This document shows, piece after piece, positions 20,914-32,842 of a stretch of DNA of 64,000 bases (position 1 is its first letter; each line of letters begins with the position of its first letter). The stretch lies in the NCBI GenBank assembly GCA_012970285.1, contig JIBW01000006.1, forward strand, positions 62,001 through 126,000. Direction: 5' to 3'. This stretch comes from Bacillaceae bacterium JMAK1 (GTDB lineage Bacteria > Bacillota > Bacilli > Bacillales > Marinococcaceae). The notes under the pieces are model-generated. The model was given only the letters and a program-made list of their open reading frames with translations. It made no database searches and had not been told where the DNA came from. The position numbers and the translations under genes were made by a program.

Positions 20914-21483
20914 TTAATTGTTTTCAACCGGTTGAGCATAAATCACATAACGTTCTGGTGCAGCACCTAATAAATGAAAGGGATAACATGTGGATAAGGT
21001 TAACACTTCCTCACCCATTTCTCGAATAATCGACGTGTCATCTTTGTCTACGATCGTATGCGAACGCATTTCATATTCAAATGTACCATATGAAAGTTCA
21101 ACGATAAATACGTCGCCAACTTCAAGCTCTCCAAAGTTCTTAAACACGGTATCCCGATGACCTGACAGAAGAATTTGTTCCCCCTCAGATGGCCAAGCTG
21201 TAGACGTAAAATGCCCTACACCTTTCGCGAGCATTTCTTCTTCTGTCCCTTCAATGATCGGTAATGATACGTCGAGCTTCGGAATGGTTAGTACACCTAC
21301 AGGCTCCCCAAGTTCAGGTTGGAATGCTTCCACCTTTTCAATCTCTTTTGACTCTTCTACCACTTCAGCAGCACGACTAATCGCTTGGTCCGTGCTCACT
21401 TTCGTTGTCATATAGTCGTACGTTGCAACACTCAGCAATACAACCCCAACGATGATGAACACAATACTGACTACTCGCCTCAC
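20914..21483 (-). CDS. Class D sortase
   Basis: Cysteine transpeptidase that cleaves an LPXTG-type motif and links the protein to the cell wall. The 189-residue protein has an N-terminal membrane anchor (about residues 4-22) and the catalytic set His109 (LLSGHRDTVF), Cys166 (LTLSTCYPF) and Arg178 (PERYVIY). The motif order and short length fit class D. The start is GTG at 21483, overlapping the TGA of the LPXTG gene by four bases with no separate ribosome site, so translation is coupled to its likely substrate. Expected to act at the outer face of the membrane. Confidence 0.9.
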   Translation of the reverse strand: MRRVVSIVFIIVGVVLLSVATYDYMTTKVSTDQAISRAAEVVEESKEIEKVEAFQPELGEPVGVLTIPKLDVSLPIIEGTEEEMLAKGVGHFTSTAWPSEGEQILLSGHRDTVFKNFGELEVGDVFIVELSYGTFEYEMRSHTIVDKDDTSIIREMGEEVLTLSTCYPFHLLGAAPERYVIYAQPVENN

Positions 21484-22553
21484 GATTCTGGCGTTGATTT
21501 ACGACGGAATCTCATCGCCACTCCTGCAAGTAATGCGAGTAATCCAGCAAAACCAACATTGTACATGCTAGTAGAAGTATCTGGAAGCTTCTCGCCCGAT
21601 GTGCTCGCTTTAGACGTATCACTTGATTTCTTCAGCACCGGTCCAGCCTCTTTTTCAACATGCTTTACTTGTGTTACTTCTTTCACAGGTGATTTTTCAA
21701 CTGGCGTAGTTGGTGTCGGTGGTGTCACTGCACCACCTTCATTGCATTCTTCTTCAGGTATTTCGATCCACCATTCATCGTCCAGGTACCACCAAATCAA
21801 ATCAACAATGTAATTGAGCCATTCGTCACTAATGTGGTCGAGCCACATCCAAATCTCTTCTTCAGATAATGAATCAAGGTAAGCGATCCACTTCTCTGCG
21901 TCCGCTTCTGTAAATTCAGTTGGAACTGGTCCTGTCGGAATCCAAAATCCATATTCCACTTCAACAAATTCCCACTCACCATCAAACGGCGGCTTTGGTT
22001 TTGTTTGATCTTGATCTATTGGTGTTCCCGCTTCTACTTCGTCGTCTACGACTGGCGCTTCCTCAACGGGTTGTTCTTCATCAACATGTGGCACTTCCTC
22101 AACCGGTTGTTCTTCATCAACATGTGGCACTTCTTCAACTGGTTGCTCTTCATCTTCAGTTGGTACTTCTTCAGTTGAATCTTCCGTGTCGCTCTCTTCT
22201 TCATCTACAACAGGAAAGTCAACTTCCGCTTCCTCGTCTAAGACAAGTTGCTCATCTTGATCTGACTCTAGAACAAGTTCTGTACCTTCACCTTCTTCAA
22301 CTTCATGAACAAGTTCAACGTCAATGACTTCTAATGCAAATTCGACGTCGTTTTCTAAAACCGTTTCTTCAATGACGTTTACCTCTTGCTCTACAGTTTT
22401 AGACTCTGCTTGTGCCAATCCATCTGTGACAGCAAATGATGTTGCTGCAAGTGCCGACAACGCAATAACGTTGCGTAAATGACGACCCTTACGCATCCTC
22501 CCCGTATGTAACCTACGTTTGTAATCCACACCGCGAAGACTGCTTCTTCTCAT
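21480..22553 (-). CDS. LPXTG-anchored, Trp-rich acidic surface protein
   Basis: A 357-residue cell-wall protein. From ATG 22553: a long basic N-region, a signal peptide ending LAQA about residue 49, a very acidic repeat region (about residues 60-175) with a 12-residue period around VEEVPHVDEEQP, then a Trp-rich block (IWMWLDHISDEW, LIWWYLDDEWW, about 240-270), a Pro/Thr linker and the sorting signal LPDTS at about 323 with a hydrophobic segment and RFRRK tail. ATG 22553 has AGAAGG upstream; an ATG at 22574 lacks a ribosome site. It precedes and overlaps the sortase gene, its probable enzyme. I do not recognise the Trp-rich block. Confidence 0.85.
   Translation of the reverse strand: MRRSSLRGVDYKRRLHTGRMRKGRHLRNVIALSALAATSFAVTDGLAQAESKTVEQEVNVIEETVLENDVEFALEVIDVELVHEVEEGEGTELVLESDQDEQLVLDEEAEVDFPVVDEEESDTEDSTEEVPTEDEEQPVEEVPHVDEEQPVEEVPHVDEEQPVEEAPVVDDEVEAGTPIDQDQTKPKPPFDGEWEFVEVEYGFWIPTGPVPTEFTEADAEKWIAYLDSLSEEEIWMWLDHISDEWLNYIVDLIWWYLDDEWWIEIPEEECNEGGAVTPPTPTTPVEKSPVKEVTQVKHVEKEAGPVLKKSSDTSKASTSGEKLPDTSTSMYNVGFAGLLALLAGVAMRFRRKSTPES
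22058..22165 (-). repeat. 36-base tandem repeat inside LPXTG gene
   Basis: Three consecutive 36-base units starting at 22058, 22094 and 22130; the first two differ by about one base, the third is diverged. Each encodes 12 residues ending in the acidic motif DEEQP. Such repeats are prone to copy-number change. Confidence 0.75.
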
Positions 22554-22607
22554 CTTCTTTTTCCTTCTTCCCATGAGTTAGTGGTACAGAAATGTAAAGC
22601 TGATCTT

Positions 22608-22874: not shown

Positions 22875-23357
22875 ATGGAACTTTTACAAGACTTTATTAT
22901 AAATCTCATGGAAATGAATCCTTTATTGCAACACCTTGGGATTGCTCTCATCGGAGTCATTCCATTTCTAGAAGGTTTTTTCGGATCATTTGTTGGGTCG
23001 TTTATCGGTGTGTCGGCTGTAACTTCTGCAATTGCGAGTTTCGTCGGGAACTGGATCTCGGTTATGCTCGTCATCATCCCGTTCAACGCACTGTTCACTT
23101 GGTTACGAAAACGGAATTCTGGTAAAAGTGGCGGATTTATTCAAGGACGTGCTAAAAAGGCACAAGAGACGTACGAAAAGTACGGTGTTCCAGGTCTTGC
23201 AATTATTGCCCCTGCGATCGCATCGGGTCATATTGCAGCATTTATCTCCCTTGCTGCAGGCGCTGATAAGAAACGTGTGATCTTCTGGCATACAATCAGT
23301 ATTCTTCTCTGGGTAACCGTCGGTGCTGCATTTGGTGGGTTTGTTGGAATCAACTAA
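22875..23357 (+). CDS. Small multidrug-export family membrane protein (COG2426 type)
   Basis: A 160-residue protein with four hydrophobic segments. IALIGVIPFLEGFFGSFVGS (about residues 22-41), with its conserved PxxEG, and a central basic loop (RKRNSGKSGGFIQGRAKKAQ) are typical of the small multidrug export group; KYGVPGLAIIAPAIASGH follows, as in DedA-like folds. The start has AAGGAG about nine bases upstream. Single gene with its own terminator, divergent from the LPXTG operon. Transport substrate is not established for this group. Confidence 0.75.
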   Translation: MELLQDFIINLMEMNPLLQHLGIALIGVIPFLEGFFGSFVGSFIGVSAVTSAIASFVGNWISVMLVIIPFNALFTWLRKRNSGKSGGFIQGRAKKAQETYEKYGVPGLAIIAPAIASGHIAAFISLAAGADKKRVIFWHTISILLWVTVGAAFGGFVGIN

Positions 23358-23364
23358 ACACGGT

Positions 23365-23401
23365 AAAAAACCACAAAGGGTCGTTCCCTTTGTGGTTTTT
23401 T
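23365..23401 (+). terminator. Terminator after 22875 gene
   Basis: Perfect 16-base stem AAAAAACCACAAAGGG / CCCTTTGTGGTTTTTT with a five-base loop. Confidence 0.92.
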
Positions 23402-23460
23402 AGTTTAAAACGTTGGTCATAGACGATATACTGAACGAGATATAGATTGGAGGCCTTAGC

Positions 23461-24411
23461 ATGTATACGATGACAGACTTAGAAATCGTTCAACATGGTC
23501 ACGTTGTGGTTCCTTCTTTTGATTTAACCGTGAACGAAGGGGATTTCACAATCATTCATTGTAGTGCAAAACAAGGGAATGTCCTTCTTAACTTTTTACA
23601 TACTCAACGTCAAAACACCGATCACATAACATTCAGTCAACAAAAGAAGATCGGTTACTTTATGTTAGAAGACACCCTTTATGAACGACTTTCAGTGTTT
23701 GACAATCTCGCATTCTTTCATAACATGTACAATTCAAAGACTGATTTAAATGAAATCTTATCTACTTGGGGGCTTACGTCATTCCAATCAATGCGCTACC
23801 TAGATCTAGATGATTCTATTAAACGACGTGTATTAATTGCCCGGGCAATCGTTCATGAACCTTTAATTGTCATTTTAGAAAATCCATACATCGGTGTAGA
23901 TCACGAGACGAAACAATTAATCTCAAACAATTTAATCCTTTATTCCAATCGAGCGAAAGCTGTTCTTCTCACATTATCTGATTATGACGTTGAACCATTC
24001 AGCATCGGTCGACAATATAAAATGACGAATACGACGCTTGTGGAACTCTCAAGTGAGGATGCTCTTCCAACTCCGTTTAAGAAGATTGCAGCGAAGCAAG
24101 CAGAAAAGACATTGCTGTTTAATCCTGAGGAAATCGATTATATCGAAGCGATTGATGGGGAGTGTTTGCTATATGTGAACGAACAGTCTTACGTTTCTCC
24201 TTTTACACTCCAAGCACTTGAGCAGCAACTAGTACCGTTCGGCTTCTTTCGAACACACCGTTCATATCTCGTCAACTTACAGCGTGTTCGAGAAGTCATG
24301 CAATGGACGAGAAATAGTTACACCGTCGTTATTGCAAAATACCCGGACGGCGTTCCACTTGCTAAAAGCAAATTGCCTTTACTTTATGAAACGCTCGGGA
24401 TCGCCCTGTAA
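23461..24411 (+). CDS. Degenerate ABC ATPase fused to LytTR DNA-binding domain
   Basis: A 316-residue two-domain protein. Residues 1-200 keep the layout of an ABC ATPase but have lost every catalytic motif: the Walker A position reads HCSAKQGNVLLNF, the signature region LDLDDSIKRRVLIARAI, Walker B VILENP (no DE pair) and the switch region LLTLSDYD (no His). The LYERLSVFDNLAFFHN block shows that the fold is ABC. Residues 215-316 are a LytTR domain: EEIDYIEAIDGECLLYV, FFRTHRSYLVNLQRVREV and PLAKSKLPLL. It cannot hydrolyse ATP by normal means and probably regulates the ABC exporter encoded next, 108 bases downstream. Confidence 0.82.
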   Translation: MYTMTDLEIVQHGHVVVPSFDLTVNEGDFTIIHCSAKQGNVLLNFLHTQRQNTDHITFSQQKKIGYFMLEDTLYERLSVFDNLAFFHNMYNSKTDLNEILSTWGLTSFQSMRYLDLDDSIKRRVLIARAIVHEPLIVILENPYIGVDHETKQLISNNLILYSNRAKAVLLTLSDYDVEPFSIGRQYKMTNTTLVELSSEDALPTPFKKIAAKQAEKTLLFNPEEIDYIEAIDGECLLYVNEQSYVSPFTLQALEQQLVPFGFFRTHRSYLVNLQRVREVMQWTRNSYTVVIAKYPDGVPLAKSKLPLLYETLGIAL

Positions 24412-24426
24412 TTTCACGTCCGATTG

Positions 24427-24454
24427 TGCACCATTCGCATTGCTCTATGCACCA
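24427..24454. promoter_or_regulatory. Direct repeat spaced 21 bases, candidate LytTR site
   Basis: TGCACCA at 24427-24433 and again at 24448-24454; with flanks TGTGCACCATTC and TATGCACCACTC agree at 10 of 12 positions. The spacing is two helical turns, as for known LytTR regulators such as AgrA and ComE. It lies in the gap between the LytTR fusion gene and the ABC ATPase gene. Confidence 0.5.
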
Positions 24455-24519
24455 CTCACCGTAAACTTAATGCTAGTCAAATCATCTTCCCCCAAACTGA
24501 ACGTGAAAGGGATGATGGT

Positions 24520-25365
24520 ATGAATTCAATTATTGAATTTGAAGATGTACACAAACAATTCAAAGAGAAAAAGGCACTCACAGACGTAAACTTCTCTATT
24601 AAAAAAGGAGAAATATTTGGCCTTGTCGGTCCTAGTGGTGTAGGTAAAACAACGACGATTAAGTTACTCACCGACCAATTAAAGCCAAGCGAAGGTGCCA
24701 TCCGTGTATTTGGTGAAAGCGTAACGGGCAATCATACTCGATTGCTTAGCAAAATGGGCATTCTCAGTGATCGGAGTGTGCTCTATGAACGATTGAGTTT
24801 GTACGACAACTTACGTTTTCTAGCTTCTCTATATGACCGACCCGTGAGTACCATTGAAGACATCTTGGAACACGTCGGATTAGCCTCATCGAGAAAGGCC
24901 GCCTACAAAAATTTATCAAAAGGGATGAAGCAACGAGCGAATTTAGCTGCAGCGCTCATTCATGCTCCCGAAATCTTAATTCTCGATGAACCGACTGCTT
25001 CACTTGACCCGAGTGCAAAAGCAAATGTGCACGCGTTTTTACGTCAACTCAATGAACAAGGTTCAACCATTTTTCTAACGTCCCACGATATGAACGAAAT
25101 CGAATCACTCTGTCACCGTGTGGCATTTATGATCGACGGTACGATTTATCTTTGTGACGAACCTGCTCAAATCCGTAGCATGTACGCTGCACCGACGGTT
25201 ACGGTGACATTTGCTGACGGGAACGTTGAAACATTCAACAATAGTTATACGGGAATGACGTCACTTCGAAACGCTATTGAAAGTCGTAAAGTACAATCCC
25301 TCCACAGTGACGAACCTTCATTAACCGATATCTTTTTAGACGTAACCGGGAGGAAATTTGCATGA
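24520..25365 (+). CDS. ABC transporter ATP-binding protein
   Basis: Functional-looking ABC-2 exporter ATPase of 281 residues. Walker A GPSGVGKTTTIKL (about residues 40-52), Q-loop region GILSDRSVLYERLSLYDNL, signature LSKGMKQRANLAAALI (SKGM in place of SGGM), Walker B ILILDEPTASLDP and switch His in TSHDMNEIE are all present. ATG 24520 follows AAAGGGATG; in-frame codons back to 24424 lack support. ATGA overlap with the permease gene. The YERLSxxDNL block is shared with the degenerate upstream protein, hinting that the latter arose from such an ATPase. Confidence 0.9.
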   Translation: MNSIIEFEDVHKQFKEKKALTDVNFSIKKGEIFGLVGPSGVGKTTTIKLLTDQLKPSEGAIRVFGESVTGNHTRLLSKMGILSDRSVLYERLSLYDNLRFLASLYDRPVSTIEDILEHVGLASSRKAAYKNLSKGMKQRANLAAALIHAPEILILDEPTASLDPSAKANVHAFLRQLNEQGSTIFLTSHDMNEIESLCHRVAFMIDGTIYLCDEPAQIRSMYAAPTVTVTFADGNVETFNNSYTGMTSLRNAIESRKVQSLHSDEPSLTDIFLDVTGRKFA

Positions 25366-26072
25366 GCCTATCGATGAGAAGAATTTTTGCAATTGTACGT
25401 AAAGATCGTAAAGACTCGATGAAAAGCGCGAATATCGTCCCTGTGTTGCTAATCCCCGTCGGAATGGCACTGATGTTTGCTTACGTGATGCCAAGTGATC
25501 TAGACATGATGTTTGAGATGTACGTTGGTGTAATCTTGCTAAACCTTTTATTTATCTCTGGGGTTGTCCCCGCCAACTCGCTTGCGGAAGAAAAAGAGAA
25601 AGGGACACTCCGAATGTTACTTTATACCCCAACAAGCATCGCAGAACTATTAATCGGTAAAAACATTCACTATTTCTGTTTATCACTCATTGGGGTACTT
25701 CTGAGCTTACTCATTCTACAAGTTCCAATATCGTGGGGTTATTTCCTCGTTGCTGTGATTCCTGTCGCATTTTTTTGCATTGTATTATCTTCAACGGTAG
25801 GACTTCTCGCGAACAATAATGGACAGATCATGATCACACTCTTTCCAGTTATCATGGGTATGTATTTTATTTCTTCGATGGCTGATCTGTACAATGTAGC
25901 CTTTATTTATACAATCAAACGCTTTCTACCGATCGAGATCTTTTACGATGCCTTTTACGTTAGTTATTACGGTGGTTCATTCCCGTGGTTTAGCTTAGTG
26001 GTGACGCTCTGTTGGATTACCGTTATTAGTATTATTTTCGCAGTCGTATATCGAAAACAACGATACACGTAA
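25362..26072 (+). CDS. ABC-2 type transporter permease
   Basis: A 236-residue membrane subunit with six hydrophobic segments. The cytoplasmic loop SLAEEKEKGTLRMLLYTP (about residues 70-87) is the conserved ABC-2 permease motif. Start codon overlaps the ATPase stop (ATGA). With the 24520 ATPase it should form an exporter, of the type used for bacteriocin or peptide-antibiotic export or immunity, but there is no peptide gene nearby. Ends with its own terminator. Confidence 0.85.
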   Translation: MSLSMRRIFAIVRKDRKDSMKSANIVPVLLIPVGMALMFAYVMPSDLDMMFEMYVGVILLNLLFISGVVPANSLAEEKEKGTLRMLLYTPTSIAELLIGKNIHYFCLSLIGVLLSLLILQVPISWGYFLVAVIPVAFFCIVLSSTVGLLANNNGQIMITLFPVIMGMYFISSMADLYNVAFIYTIKRFLPIEIFYDAFYVSYYGGSFPWFSLVVTLCWITVISIIFAVVYRKQRYT

Positions 26073-26130: not shown

Positions 26131-26168
26131 GTATAAAAGCAAAGGGGAAATTCCCTTTGCTTTTATAC
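26131..26168. terminator. Terminator between ABC permease and MerR gene
   Basis: Perfect 16-base stem GTATAAAAGCAAAGGG / CCCTTTGCTTTTATAC with a six-base loop; serves both convergent genes. Confidence 0.9.
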
Positions 26169-26966: not shown

Positions 26967-28160
26967 TTAGTTTGCCTCTGCATAGGAGCCGAAGAACAAC
27001 GTTGCTCCTGTTGGCTCATGTTCAATTAGAAAATAAAACGGTCGATCTGCGGTGAAAAGGACCGGAGGCGTTATCGATGTACTTGTTTCCATAACAGATA
27101 CAGCAGTCACCGCAGCTGCTTCTGTGCCTTTTTCATCGATTTCAATGATTGCTCTATGGATAACATCATCTATCGAATAATTACTTCCACTACCTTCAAA
27201 CATGTTATTTTCCATATAATTAAAGATTGTTTCCATACCTAAATGTTTCAATGTATCGTTTAAATTATATTCATTGTCTAGTTCAATCGTTGGGATTTGC
27301 ACATCCACTTCTTTCGTTGACCAATCGCTACTGCTCATAATGTTAGGGATTTCGTGTAAAACATCTGTAAACACTCCCTCCCCTGGCAACACAATGGTCA
27401 TCGACGTCTCTTCATCAGCATATGGAAGTCGGACCGCTTGATATTGTTCACCCTCCACATAGCTAAAAGCATCAACTCGGTTCATCCATTCAACAACGGC
27501 TTTTGATCCATCAAGATTTGTAAACTTCTCATTAGATCCTTCTAGTAACGTGAACGGATCTTGCCAATTCCCATAAAAATACGTCGCATTAACGAGCAGT
27601 GCCACGATTTCCTCAGATAATTCATCTTCAAATAGGCGATTGATTTTACCGCTGGTTTTATCCTTCACCCAATCGTTAATTTCTTTAACCCCTGTTAATT
27701 CCCTCGCCTCTCCATAGAATGCGTCCTCAATCGTAGTGACGTAAGGTTCAAAGAATGTTACATGTTCTTTTGCCCAGATTGAATTTGCAATGCCAATCTC
27801 AACGTCTCGATCTATTGACAAGTAGGTTAACCAGTCATGAATTTTTCTATTTTCTTCTTCACGATCAACATCCTTTAACTGGAGTGCTTGATAGATTTCT
27901 TGTTCACTGTTCCCACTCGTCCCGTTTGCGACCATCATTAAGCTTAAATAAATGCTGAACGGGGACAGAATGTGATTGCCTTCATCTTCGTGTTCTAATA
28001 GTTGCACCGCAAAATCAAGTTGGTGCTCTTGCTCTAGCGATTCTTCCAATTTCGCATTGGCTTGTTCGCTTGATTGTACGCCACACCCAGTCAATCCGGC
28101 CATTAAAGCAACTCCTCCAATACTTGTCCACCACTTTATAAGACGACACCCCTTTATCAT
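26967..28160 (-). CDS. Serpin lipoprotein, predicted inhibitory
   Basis: Serine/cysteine protease inhibitor of the serpin fold, 397 residues. The N-terminus is a lipoprotein signal with lipobox LTGC, so it should be anchored on the outer face of the membrane. HILSPFSIYLSLMMVANGTSG is the serpin helix region. Near the C-terminus the reactive loop reads DEKGTEAAAVTAVSVMETS: Gly at P15, Thr at P14 and small residues P12-P9 mark an inhibitory serpin; by the usual count P1-P1' is Thr-Ser. FTADRPFYFLIEH is the serpin signature. ATG 28160 is chosen because it yields the signal peptide; its ribosome site is poor. Bacterial serpins are sporadic. Confidence 0.88.
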   Translation of the reverse strand: MIKGCRLIKWWTSIGGVALMAGLTGCGVQSSEQANAKLEESLEQEHQLDFAVQLLEHEDEGNHILSPFSIYLSLMMVANGTSGNSEQEIYQALQLKDVDREEENRKIHDWLTYLSIDRDVEIGIANSIWAKEHVTFFEPYVTTIEDAFYGEARELTGVKEINDWVKDKTSGKINRLFEDELSEEIVALLVNATYFYGNWQDPFTLLEGSNEKFTNLDGSKAVVEWMNRVDAFSYVEGEQYQAVRLPYADEETSMTIVLPGEGVFTDVLHEIPNIMSSSDWSTKEVDVQIPTIELDNEYNLNDTLKHLGMETIFNYMENNMFEGSGSNYSIDDVIHRAIIEIDEKGTEAAAVTAVSVMETSTSITPPVLFTADRPFYFLIEHEPTGATLFFGSYAEAN

Positions 28161-28175
28161 ACTATTCGTTCTTTT

Positions 28176-28184
28176 TGGTATAAT
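28176..28184 (+). promoter_or_regulatory. Extended -10 promoter of methyltransferase gene
   Basis: TGGTATAAT (TG, one base, TATAAT) 31 bases before the ATG at 28215. No clear -35 box, which an extended -10 element can do without. Confidence 0.5.
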
Positions 28185-28214
28185 CGTTACAATGAACGTA
28201 TTTAGGGGGACCAC

Positions 28215-30616: not shown

Positions 30617-30986
30617 AAAACAGCAACCTCCTTCTCTTTGTGACCATGGTAAGTTAACTTGCTGTACATGTCCATTGATTGAAACTACAAGCTTCGCTCT
30701 TGCACCCGTTGCCCCCGCTTGCTACACCATCGCCTCCGCTTGCTACACCATCGCCGCCGCTTGCTACACCACCGCCTCCGCTTGCTACACCATCGCCCCC
30801 GCTTGCTACACCACCGCCCTCGCTTGCTACACCACCGCCCTCGCTTGCTACACCCTCGCTTCCGCTTGCTACACCCTCACCCCCGCTTGCTACACCATCA
30901 GCCCCGCTTGCTACACCATCGCCTCCGCTTGCTACACCACCGCCGCTGCACCATAAAAAAAAGACTTGCAACGACAGTTGCAAGTC
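30617..30986. other. Intergenic region with minisatellite, upstream of SDR paralogue
   Basis: 370 bases. Contents from left: about 100 bases of leader/promoter region for the minus-strand SDR gene, the 21-base tandem repeat (30716-30946) and a terminator (30961-30988). Open frames through the repeat exist in several frames only because the period is a multiple of three and the unit lacks stops; they start with TTG and have no ribosome site. Confidence 0.65.
30716..30946. repeat. 11 tandem copies of a 21-base GC-rich unit
   Basis: Eleven head-to-tail units of exactly 21 bases, each beginning CGCTTGCTACACC and ending with a variable CGCC-rich tail. The first 13 bases are invariant in all copies; variation is confined to the last eight. 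The unit is clearly richer in G+C than the flanks. On the minus strand it is rich in GG doublets. Confidence 0.92.
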
Positions 30987-30988
30987 TT
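30961..30988 (-). terminator. Terminator of 59-residue membrane protein gene
   Basis: Perfect 12-base stem AAGACTTGCAAC / GTTGCAAGTCTT with a four-base loop, followed on the minus strand by eight T residues. The stop codon of the 30987 gene lies at its base. Confidence 0.9.
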
Positions 30989-31166
30989 AGGAACGTGAAT
31001 GTTGTAGTGCTCTATAGATTCCGATGAATAGGTTAATTTGAGCTAGACTAAAGAATATAATCCAGAGCAAACTGCCAACGTACATGATGAATGCGGAAAC
31101 TGCGGTTAAGAGTAGTGCTGAAATCATCGGAAATAGTACGGTTTTGTCTTTAAGAATCTCTTTCAT
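30987..31166 (-). CDS. Small two-helix membrane protein, 59 residues
   Basis: Short gene translated by hand. The protein begins MKEILKDKTVLFPMISALL and has two hydrophobic segments (about residues 10-31 and 33-51) and a short basic tail ending HSRS. ATG 31166 has AAGGGG six bases upstream. It starts 15 bases after the YkwC-type gene and is closed by a strong terminator, so it is a genuine last gene of that unit. I do not recognise the family. Confidence 0.7.
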   Translation of the reverse strand: MKEILKDKTVLFPMISALLLTAVSAFIMYVGSLLWIIFFSLAQINLFIGIYRALQHSRS

Positions 31167-32098: not shown

Positions 32099-32842
32099 TC
32101 ATGTAACAATGATTGGTTCGTCTTTTGTGACGATAATCGTATGCTCTTTTTGAGCTACAAATCCTTGTTCTTTCGTTAATAATGTCCAACCGTCATCTTT
32201 TTCATAGATCTCTTCTGCTTTTGTCGATACGAATGGTTCGTATGCAATTACGGAACCTTCCGTAAAGAGTGAGCGATCCCAAGGGATATAGTAGTTGTAA
32301 ATATGGTCTGGTTCATCTCGTAGTGAAGAGCCTACACCGTGGCCAGTTAAGTTCTTAATCACCGTGTACCCGAGTTGCTTAGCGGTACGATTCACCGCTC
32401 GACCGACACCGTTCATCTTCGATCCAGCTTTAAACTTCTTTAATCCTTCATCAAAAACAACATCGGTCGCTTTTAACAGTTTCTCGAGCTCTGGATTTGA
32501 AGTAGTCCCAGCAACGAATGACTTACCTGTATCTACCCAGTAATCGTTATACGCCCCTGAAACATCAATGTTAACGAGATCACCGTCTTGAATTTCACGA
32601 CTCCCTGGAATACCGTGAGCAACTTCTTCGTTGACACAGATGCATGTGTATCCTGGGAAATTGTACGTACTAATCGGTGCAGAAATCGCTCCGTATTTCT
32701 TAAACATTCGCTCTGCAATTTCATCGAGCTCTTTTGTTGTAATACCAGGCTTTGTTTGAGCAATCATTTCATCACGTATTTCAGAAATGACCTTCCCTGC
32801 ATCCTTTAAGCCTTGGATGTCTTTTTCGCTTGTTGCTATCAT
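32099..32842 (-). CDS. Type I methionine aminopeptidase (YflG/MapB-like)
   Basis: Removes the initiator methionine from nascent proteins. The 247-residue protein has the pita-bread metal-site residues: NIDVSGAYNDYWVDTGKSF (two Asp), TGHGVGSSLRDEP (His) and YEPF..VAQKEHTI (two Glu). The housekeeping map gene normally lies in the ribosomal protein cluster, so this is the second copy, like B. subtilis YflG. The start has AAAGGAG upstream. Single-gene unit with its own promoter region. Confidence 0.9.
   Translation of the reverse strand: MIATSEKDIQGLKDAGKVISEIRDEMIAQTKPGITTKELDEIAERMFKKYGAISAPISTYNFPGYTCICVNEEVAHGIPGSREIQDGDLVNIDVSGAYNDYWVDTGKSFVAGTTSNPELEKLLKATDVVFDEGLKKFKAGSKMNGVGRAVNRTAKQLGYTVIKNLTGHGVGSSLRDEPDHIYNYYIPWDRSLFTEGSVIAYEPFVSTKAEEIYEKDDGWTLLTKEQGFVAQKEHTIIVTKDEPIIVT

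Follow-up and report, generated by a model that had tools for sequence, protein, structure and literature searches.

The window, a stretch of 64,000 nucleotides, contains an open reading frame of 316 codons on the forward strand (23461–24411) that joins a degenerate, apparently dead ABC nucleotide-binding domain (NBD; residues 1 to ~200) to a LytTR DNA-binding domain (residues ~215–316), as assigned by Pfam, fold and alignment. It is followed on the same strand by an ABC ATPase gene (24514–25365; Pfam ABC_tran, 7.1e-32), which has its catalytic letters and whose longest open reading frame begins at a TTG at 24424, and by an ABC-2 permease gene (25362–26072; Pfam ABC2_membrane_3, 7.7e-9). An earlier note on this DNA had read these two genes as an intact ABC ATPase and permease, and the Pfam matches agree. 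Upstream, a forward-strand gene (22875–23357) codes for a membrane protein of family PF06695 (Sm_multidrug_ex; Pfam, 5.4e-10), a family that also supplies most of the predicted operator targets in the ATPase-less class. A hairpin flanked by runs of A and T (23364–23402; −24.4 kcal/mol, z −8.15) is a likely terminator between the PF06695 and fusion genes, and a second hairpin 3’ of the permease gene (26131–26168; z −8.63) is a likely terminator as well. The fusion gene is preceded by a weak promoter-like site, a 9/12 pattern match on the forward strand (23404–23432); promoter-like sites number 10 in the fusion region against 7.6 expected, which is not significant alone. Elsewhere in the window, a sortase gene adjoins one whose product bears a cell-wall-anchor motif (20914–22574, reverse strand), a serpin-like open reading frame was recognized by eye (26967–28214, reverse strand), and a repetitive stretch with short-period repeats in several frames separates an SDR-like gene from the one that follows (30654–31027).

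Pfam places LytTR (PF04397) at residues 216–312 of the fusion (1.2e-20, 74 bits against a cut-off of 22.6) and ABC_tran at residues 37–142 (5.9e-6, 27.4 bits against a cut-off of 25). Even at E-values up to 10 these are the only two Pfam domains returned; the search finds no receiver, and the fusion does not qualify as a response regulator. An AlphaFold2 model (mean pLDDT 87.4, pTM 0.63) was built on a 64-row alignment of the window fusion, L075 and 62 of the 64 other listed loci, with L131 and L136 excluded. Its residues 1–206 superpose on LptB (chain 4p31_B) with a Z of 23.0 and an rmsd of 2.8 over 204 aligned residues, as expected of an NBD fold. When aligned with the intact partner ATPases, the window fusion has Gly at the Walker A Lys, Ser at the signature Gly, Glu at the Walker B Asp, Asn at the catalytic Glu and Ser at the switch His, and so has none of the residues that mark a working ABC ATPase; all five are present in 89/89 partner ATPases. 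The N-terminal half of the window fusion is thus modelled as an ABC NBD fold from which the catalytic motifs are missing. The earlier note had described a degenerate ABC ATPase, deprived of Walker A, signature, Walker B and switch His, joined to an intact LytTR domain. The HMM searches that it recommended recover both domains, and the fold of residues 1–200, which it would have had to find non-ABC to be wrong, is that of an ABC domain.

The window fusion belongs to a family of the Bacillota. Within the best 80 of 269 relatives, the closest named one is that of Geomicrobium sediminis (95% identity over residues 1–230), and a scan of genome contigs places these best 80 in, for example, Oceanobacillus, Halobacillus, Lysinibacillus, Paenibacillus, Clostridium and Anaerocolumna. 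The fusion is carried by at least 26 of 101 related genomes, often as two paralogues, and by 11 genomes in a phylum-wide sample of 398 (matches above 150 bits reaching into both domains, four of which begin only in the first or second quarter of the NBD). The earlier note's description of the combination as rare should be qualified by these counts.

Gene neighborhoods were compared at 109 distinct loci, left from 117 after removal of L039 and of seven repeats of other loci (L075, L076, L087, L116, L129, L133 and L144); L039 and L076 are a frameshifted Geomicrobium copy, and L071, with a broken frame, is retained in the counts. The survey labels ATPase, permease and PF06695 denote blastp clusters, with Pfam run on a few members. 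The order fusion, ATPase, permease (class A) is found at 89 loci, the permease adjoins the fusion directly at 18 (class B), and other genes come next at two. An ABC-2 permease is next or next but one after the fusion in 107/109 loci, and the neighborhood survey proposed by the earlier note thus links the fusion to exporter genes, with an intact ATPase intervening in 89; related species are not independent, so these counts, and those given below for the predicted operator, overstate the evidence. Homologues far from ABC exporters, which would have told against that link, are not the rule: besides the two loci with other genes next, one of 13 further loci has another order. Both of the former are from Chengkuizengella. 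In C. marina (L122, 5178–8508) an arginase and an aminotransferase gene lie between fusion and ATPase, and an operator directly precedes the ATPase gene; in C. axinellae the available stretch contains no ATPase and no operator scoring at least 10. At the removed L039 (4941–6480, Geomicrobium sp. JCM 19038), a class A fusion is read in two frames and its ATPase is in pieces, reflecting draft errors or decay.

Catalytic residues have been lost in a graded manner. A P-loop motif is absent from the 109 aligned fusions: of five GK[ST] strings none, as judged by eye, falls where Walker A would be, and 108 of the 109 rows have one of the seven most frequent letters of the Walker A Lys column, a set without Lys. 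The switch His column has a non-His letter in at least 101/109 fusions and the signature Ser column is Ser or Thr in 86/109; 83/109 retain Glu in the catalytic Glu column. Three distant fusions have a non-His residue at the switch His and changed signatures, as judged by eye; two of them (L201 and L203) retain a P-loop and Walker B, and the third (L202) retains the Lys without the Ser/Thr. ATP binding may be the older state of the family.

The dead NBD appears nonetheless to be maintained. Between two Geomicrobium genomes dN/dS is 0.093 for the dead NBD, 0.014 for LytTR, 0.055 for the ATPase and 0.046 for the permease, and the first of these values indicates purifying selection on the dead NBD rather than chance decay. 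Tyr74 (codon 23680–23682, forward strand) and Leu77 correspond to F90 and L93 of LptB by alignment and phmmer coordinates (query 61 = LptB 77, no gap being assumed before residue 77), and the available text of PMC5082905 lists these two LptB residues in the groove cluster that touches the coupling helices of LptF/G. The residue at position 74 is Tyr in 108/109 fusions (the other has a gap) and in 89/89 partner ATPases, and Arg123 (108/109), Pro142 (106/109), the D-loop Asp147 (104/109) and Leu77 (97/109) are also kept; LptB R91 has no counterpart, the column being Glu in 73/109 fusions. The permease in turn has a conserved EExE motif in 89/89 class A loci and in 16/16 loci of a class B clade. 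In the window it reads EEKE (residues 76–79; 25587–25598, forward strand), and we take this motif of ABC-2 permeases to be the coupling helix. The kept EExE and groove Tyr could instead serve folding.

The 102-nt gap between the fusion and ATPase genes contains a predicted operator. Class A gaps carry two direct copies of a 9-bp repeat separated by 12 bp, and in the window the two LytTR-type copies, recognized by their held-out weight-model score, are ACCATTCGC (24430–24438) and, 12 bp further on the same forward strand, ACCACTCAC (24451–24459). Ten bp past the second copy, where the geometry conserved in the family puts the −35 element, the window has a non-consensus ATGCTA (24470–24475), and after a 17-bp spacer the −10 place of the long model is CAAACT (24493–24498), which misses the family consensus TANNNT. 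In the family the long model finds TANNNT at the exact −10 place in 75/89 class A gaps and a conserved TAATGC at the expected −35 place, again 10 bp from the repeat.

A weight model trained on the same gaps that it scored reached at least 14 in 83/89 class A gaps (6/89 miss the cut-off) and in none of the 89 regions within 400 bp upstream of the fusion. Since training and scoring shared these gaps, the model was cross-validated with the S. mutans LRS consensus as seed. Mean scores were then 23.1 for held-out gaps, −3.9 for upstream regions, −0.7 for the reverse strand and −4.1 for shuffles; a score of at least 12 was reached by 77/89 gaps, against 0 in upstream regions and 0 in a further control, and 84/89 held-out gaps beat all 20 of their own shuffles. 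An alternative seed of our own gave 78 gaps against one upstream region. With both class A Geomicrobium loci kept out of training, the window site (24430–24459) scored 23.0, the best of the 64 kb on either strand (the runners-up scored 19.1, 16.8 and 16.7) and a value reached by 0/2000 shuffles. A match at 32385–32418 (19.9) was judged to be due to chance, lying as it does inside an open reading frame of the opposite strand.

Thirteen loci outside the training set, of which the phylum survey supplied ten and plasmids three, have the ATPase and permease after the fusion in 12 cases and a 21-bp-period repeat in the gap, by eye, in 12. Their gap scores were 16.2, 15.5, 22.4, 15.6, 31.6, 12.7, none (L200), 15.2, 15.4, 4.9, 16.7, 15.4 and 32.7, and the gap site was the top site of the stretch on the fusion’s strand in 11/13. 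The models found no operator site at L135 or at L200, the latter with a weak permease match upstream of the fusion. At L194 the gap site is outscored by a second operator-like repeat (18.9) lying ~3 kb upstream of the fusion. In the window the 102-nt gap shows no more folding than its shuffles do (z 0.63), and an RNA attenuator was rejected there. A regulon in the window’s own genome was sought by pattern search and rejected, since 6 matches were obtained while the reversed pattern, used as a control, gave 4; for this reason the class B site is the only one accepted there as real. A possible operator before a gene for a DUF418 membrane protein (L159, ~1497; own-genome position C7:43784) scored 12.5 with one model and a weak 6.9 with the long one. 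From the arrangement in the gaps we infer that the fusion binds the direct repeat, a predicted LytTR-type operator of the exporter genes.

All but two of the 18 class B fusions group in a single clade of 16 (SH-aLRT 99), which falls within class A when the tree is midpoint-rooted; this was a quick tree with long branches flagged, and the midpoint root may not be the true one. The two outside the clade are L041 (same genus; permease, then ATPase) and L149, from Clostridium, where no ATPase gene adjoins. At L060, L061 and L041 the gene after the permease codes for an ATPase. A second fusion copy in the window’s genome is a member of the clade, in the order fusion, permease, operator, PF06695 gene. 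Within the clade, the best site scoring at least 10 by the long model precedes a PF06695-cluster gene in 11/16 loci (weak in L052, 13.8), another ABC ATPase gene in L060 and L061, both of which also have a site before the fusion, and, in L051 and L057, the small or YfzA-like gene that leads into an ABC pair. L047 has no site of at least 10 by the long model, and the short model gives one of 19.4 ~1.3 kb upstream. PF06695 is described as a distant homologue of DedA in the accessible part of PMC7818093; envelope functions are worth testing on this account, although the homology shows nothing for the present system.

Among Geomicrobium, dN/dS of the class B NBD is 0.11, 0.117 and 0.158 in three pairs and that of the permease is 0.078 in one pair. 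Given these low values and the EExE motif kept throughout the clade, fusion and permease persist together in class B with no ATPase beside them. The class B permease could borrow an ATPase encoded elsewhere.

On balance, we lean toward reading the fusion as a one-component activator, in which the dead NBD docks on the ABC-2 permease and the LytTR domain activates the exporter genes. The dead NBD would take the seat of an NBD on the cytoplasmic coupling motif of the adjoining permease, the LytTR domains would bind the 21-bp-period direct repeat ahead of the exporter genes, and the state or occupancy of the permease would set whether these domains are held or free. Once freed, they would activate a promoter that has no good −35 element. 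In the window this promoter would drive the ATPase and permease genes, and a rise in transporter would in turn act back on the regulator; where the clade lacks the ATPase, fusion and permease would have turned into a sensor for a separate membrane protein. We infer the DNA binding by the fusion, the docking, the signal and the direction of control. The earlier note's suggestion that the fusion is coupled to a transporter and needs no histidine kinase is supported by the near-constant permease, the predicted operator and the interface residues kept on both sides. That suggestion named the transporter or its ATPase as the docking partner. The permease would fit both classes; the ATPase is the less likely seat for the family at large, since the 16-member clade retains fusion and permease with no ATPase between them. 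Counted against the activator reading are the −10 of the window, which departs from the family consensus, the catalytic Glu that most fusions retain, and the two fusions that still have a P-loop.

An alternative that we consider possible but unlikely is a sensor of stoichiometry or ATP state: the fusion would pair with the real ATPase as a mixed NBD dimer, or compete with it for permease sites, and report transporter level or nucleotide state instead of an external signal. The intact ATPase between fusion and permease in class A, the near-invariant D-loop Asp and the P-loops of distant fusions are what such a sensor would lead one to expect, but the class B clade keeps the fusion and permease with no ATPase between them. 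Still less likely is a free soluble regulator whose dead NBD has a small-molecule ligand or serves only for dimerisation, with the transporter as a target that it does not touch. A LytTR operator before a neighboring gene requires no docking; yet in class B the operator precedes a different gene while the permease, its EExE kept, adjoins the fusion in 16/16 loci, and the groove Tyr is invariant wherever it can be read. Repression of the exporter promoter by the fusion, relieved when the exporter is needed, is highly improbable, as the repeat ends 10 bp before a non-consensus −35 with a good family −10, an arrangement of activation according to the accessible text of PMC6193735.

Starting from the activator reading, we tentatively suggest, with some doubt, that in class B an ABC transporter has been turned into a receptor, in which an ATPase-less permease and a dead NBD–LytTR chain would signal with neither a kinase nor ATP hydrolysis, and that this arose stepwise. 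An NBD able to bind ATP would have been fused to the LytTR domain, the switch His and signature would have been lost and then the P-loop, and finally the partner ATPase would have been lost, with the operator coming to lie before another membrane protein gene. A phage origin was rejected: the viral-contig scan confirmed no relative, and of 8 phage records that match none covers more than 80% of the query, those listed matching only in the ATPase half. On plasmid pPmT-2 of Priestia megaterium ATCC 14581 (L162, 929–6849) only a few genes separate a class A set from lantibiotic genes of the mersacidin family, which hints at export of antimicrobial peptides or at self-protection; this neighborhood was seen at one locus, and for that reason no transporter substrate is claimed.

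Among the papers listed in literature searches, judged by title and opening of the abstract and with few subscription papers covered, none deals with the fusion, with its predicted operator or with a class lacking the ATPase. InterPro and PIRSF have entries for the ABC–LytTR pair, whose architecture has been catalogued; the predicted operator is new here. RefSeq plasmid records name the protein ‘LytTR family transcriptional regulator DNA-binding domain-containing protein’, which gives the domain only and no function, operator or ATPase-less class. The family offers a concrete and testable example of a transporter domain reused for signalling, complete with a predicted operator, and may link ABC-2 permeases to membrane proteins of the DedA-related PF06695 family. 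Its ATPase-less clade separates sensing from transport, two activities that are hard to separate in MalK- or BceAB-like systems.

The nearest known relatives in arrangement are the LRS of S. mutans (HdrRM and BrsRM), in which, according to the available text of PMC6193735, a receiver-less LytTR regulator is encoded beside a membrane protein, in some cases with ABC transporter genes adjoining; Table 3 of that source gives direct repeats of 9 bp, separated by 12 bp and in most cases lying 10 bp upstream of the −35. The fusion family likewise has no receiver, has a membrane-protein gene nearby (the permease, next in class B and next but one in class A), and has 9-bp repeats with a spacer of ~12 bp at ~10 bp before the −35, matching the LRS as far as that text describes them. 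It differs in that the regulator carries a dead ABC NBD and has an ABC-2 permease for its membrane partner. The class A repeat, moreover, stands before the exporter genes and not the regulator’s own, an own-gene site being found in L060 and L061. An LRS is further marked by inhibition of the regulator by the membrane protein and by repeats at the regulator’s own operon promoter, which allow autoregulation; as class A has no repeat before its own gene, a defining feature of an LRS, the fusion is not filed as one. LytTR response regulators of the AgrA, ComE and BtsR type act at direct repeats upstream of the −35 through the same DNA-binding domain, but the fusion is without their receiver by Pfam. 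ABC ATPases of the DrrA and LptB kind share with the fusion their fold, groove Tyr and D-loop Asp, and differ in having the catalytic motifs and no added DNA-binding domain. In MalK–MalT and BceAB–BceRS the state of a transporter is thought to govern a transcription regulator; there the functional ATPase or the permease works through a regulator or kinase that is a protein of its own, whereas here a dead NBD and the DNA-binding domain form one chain.
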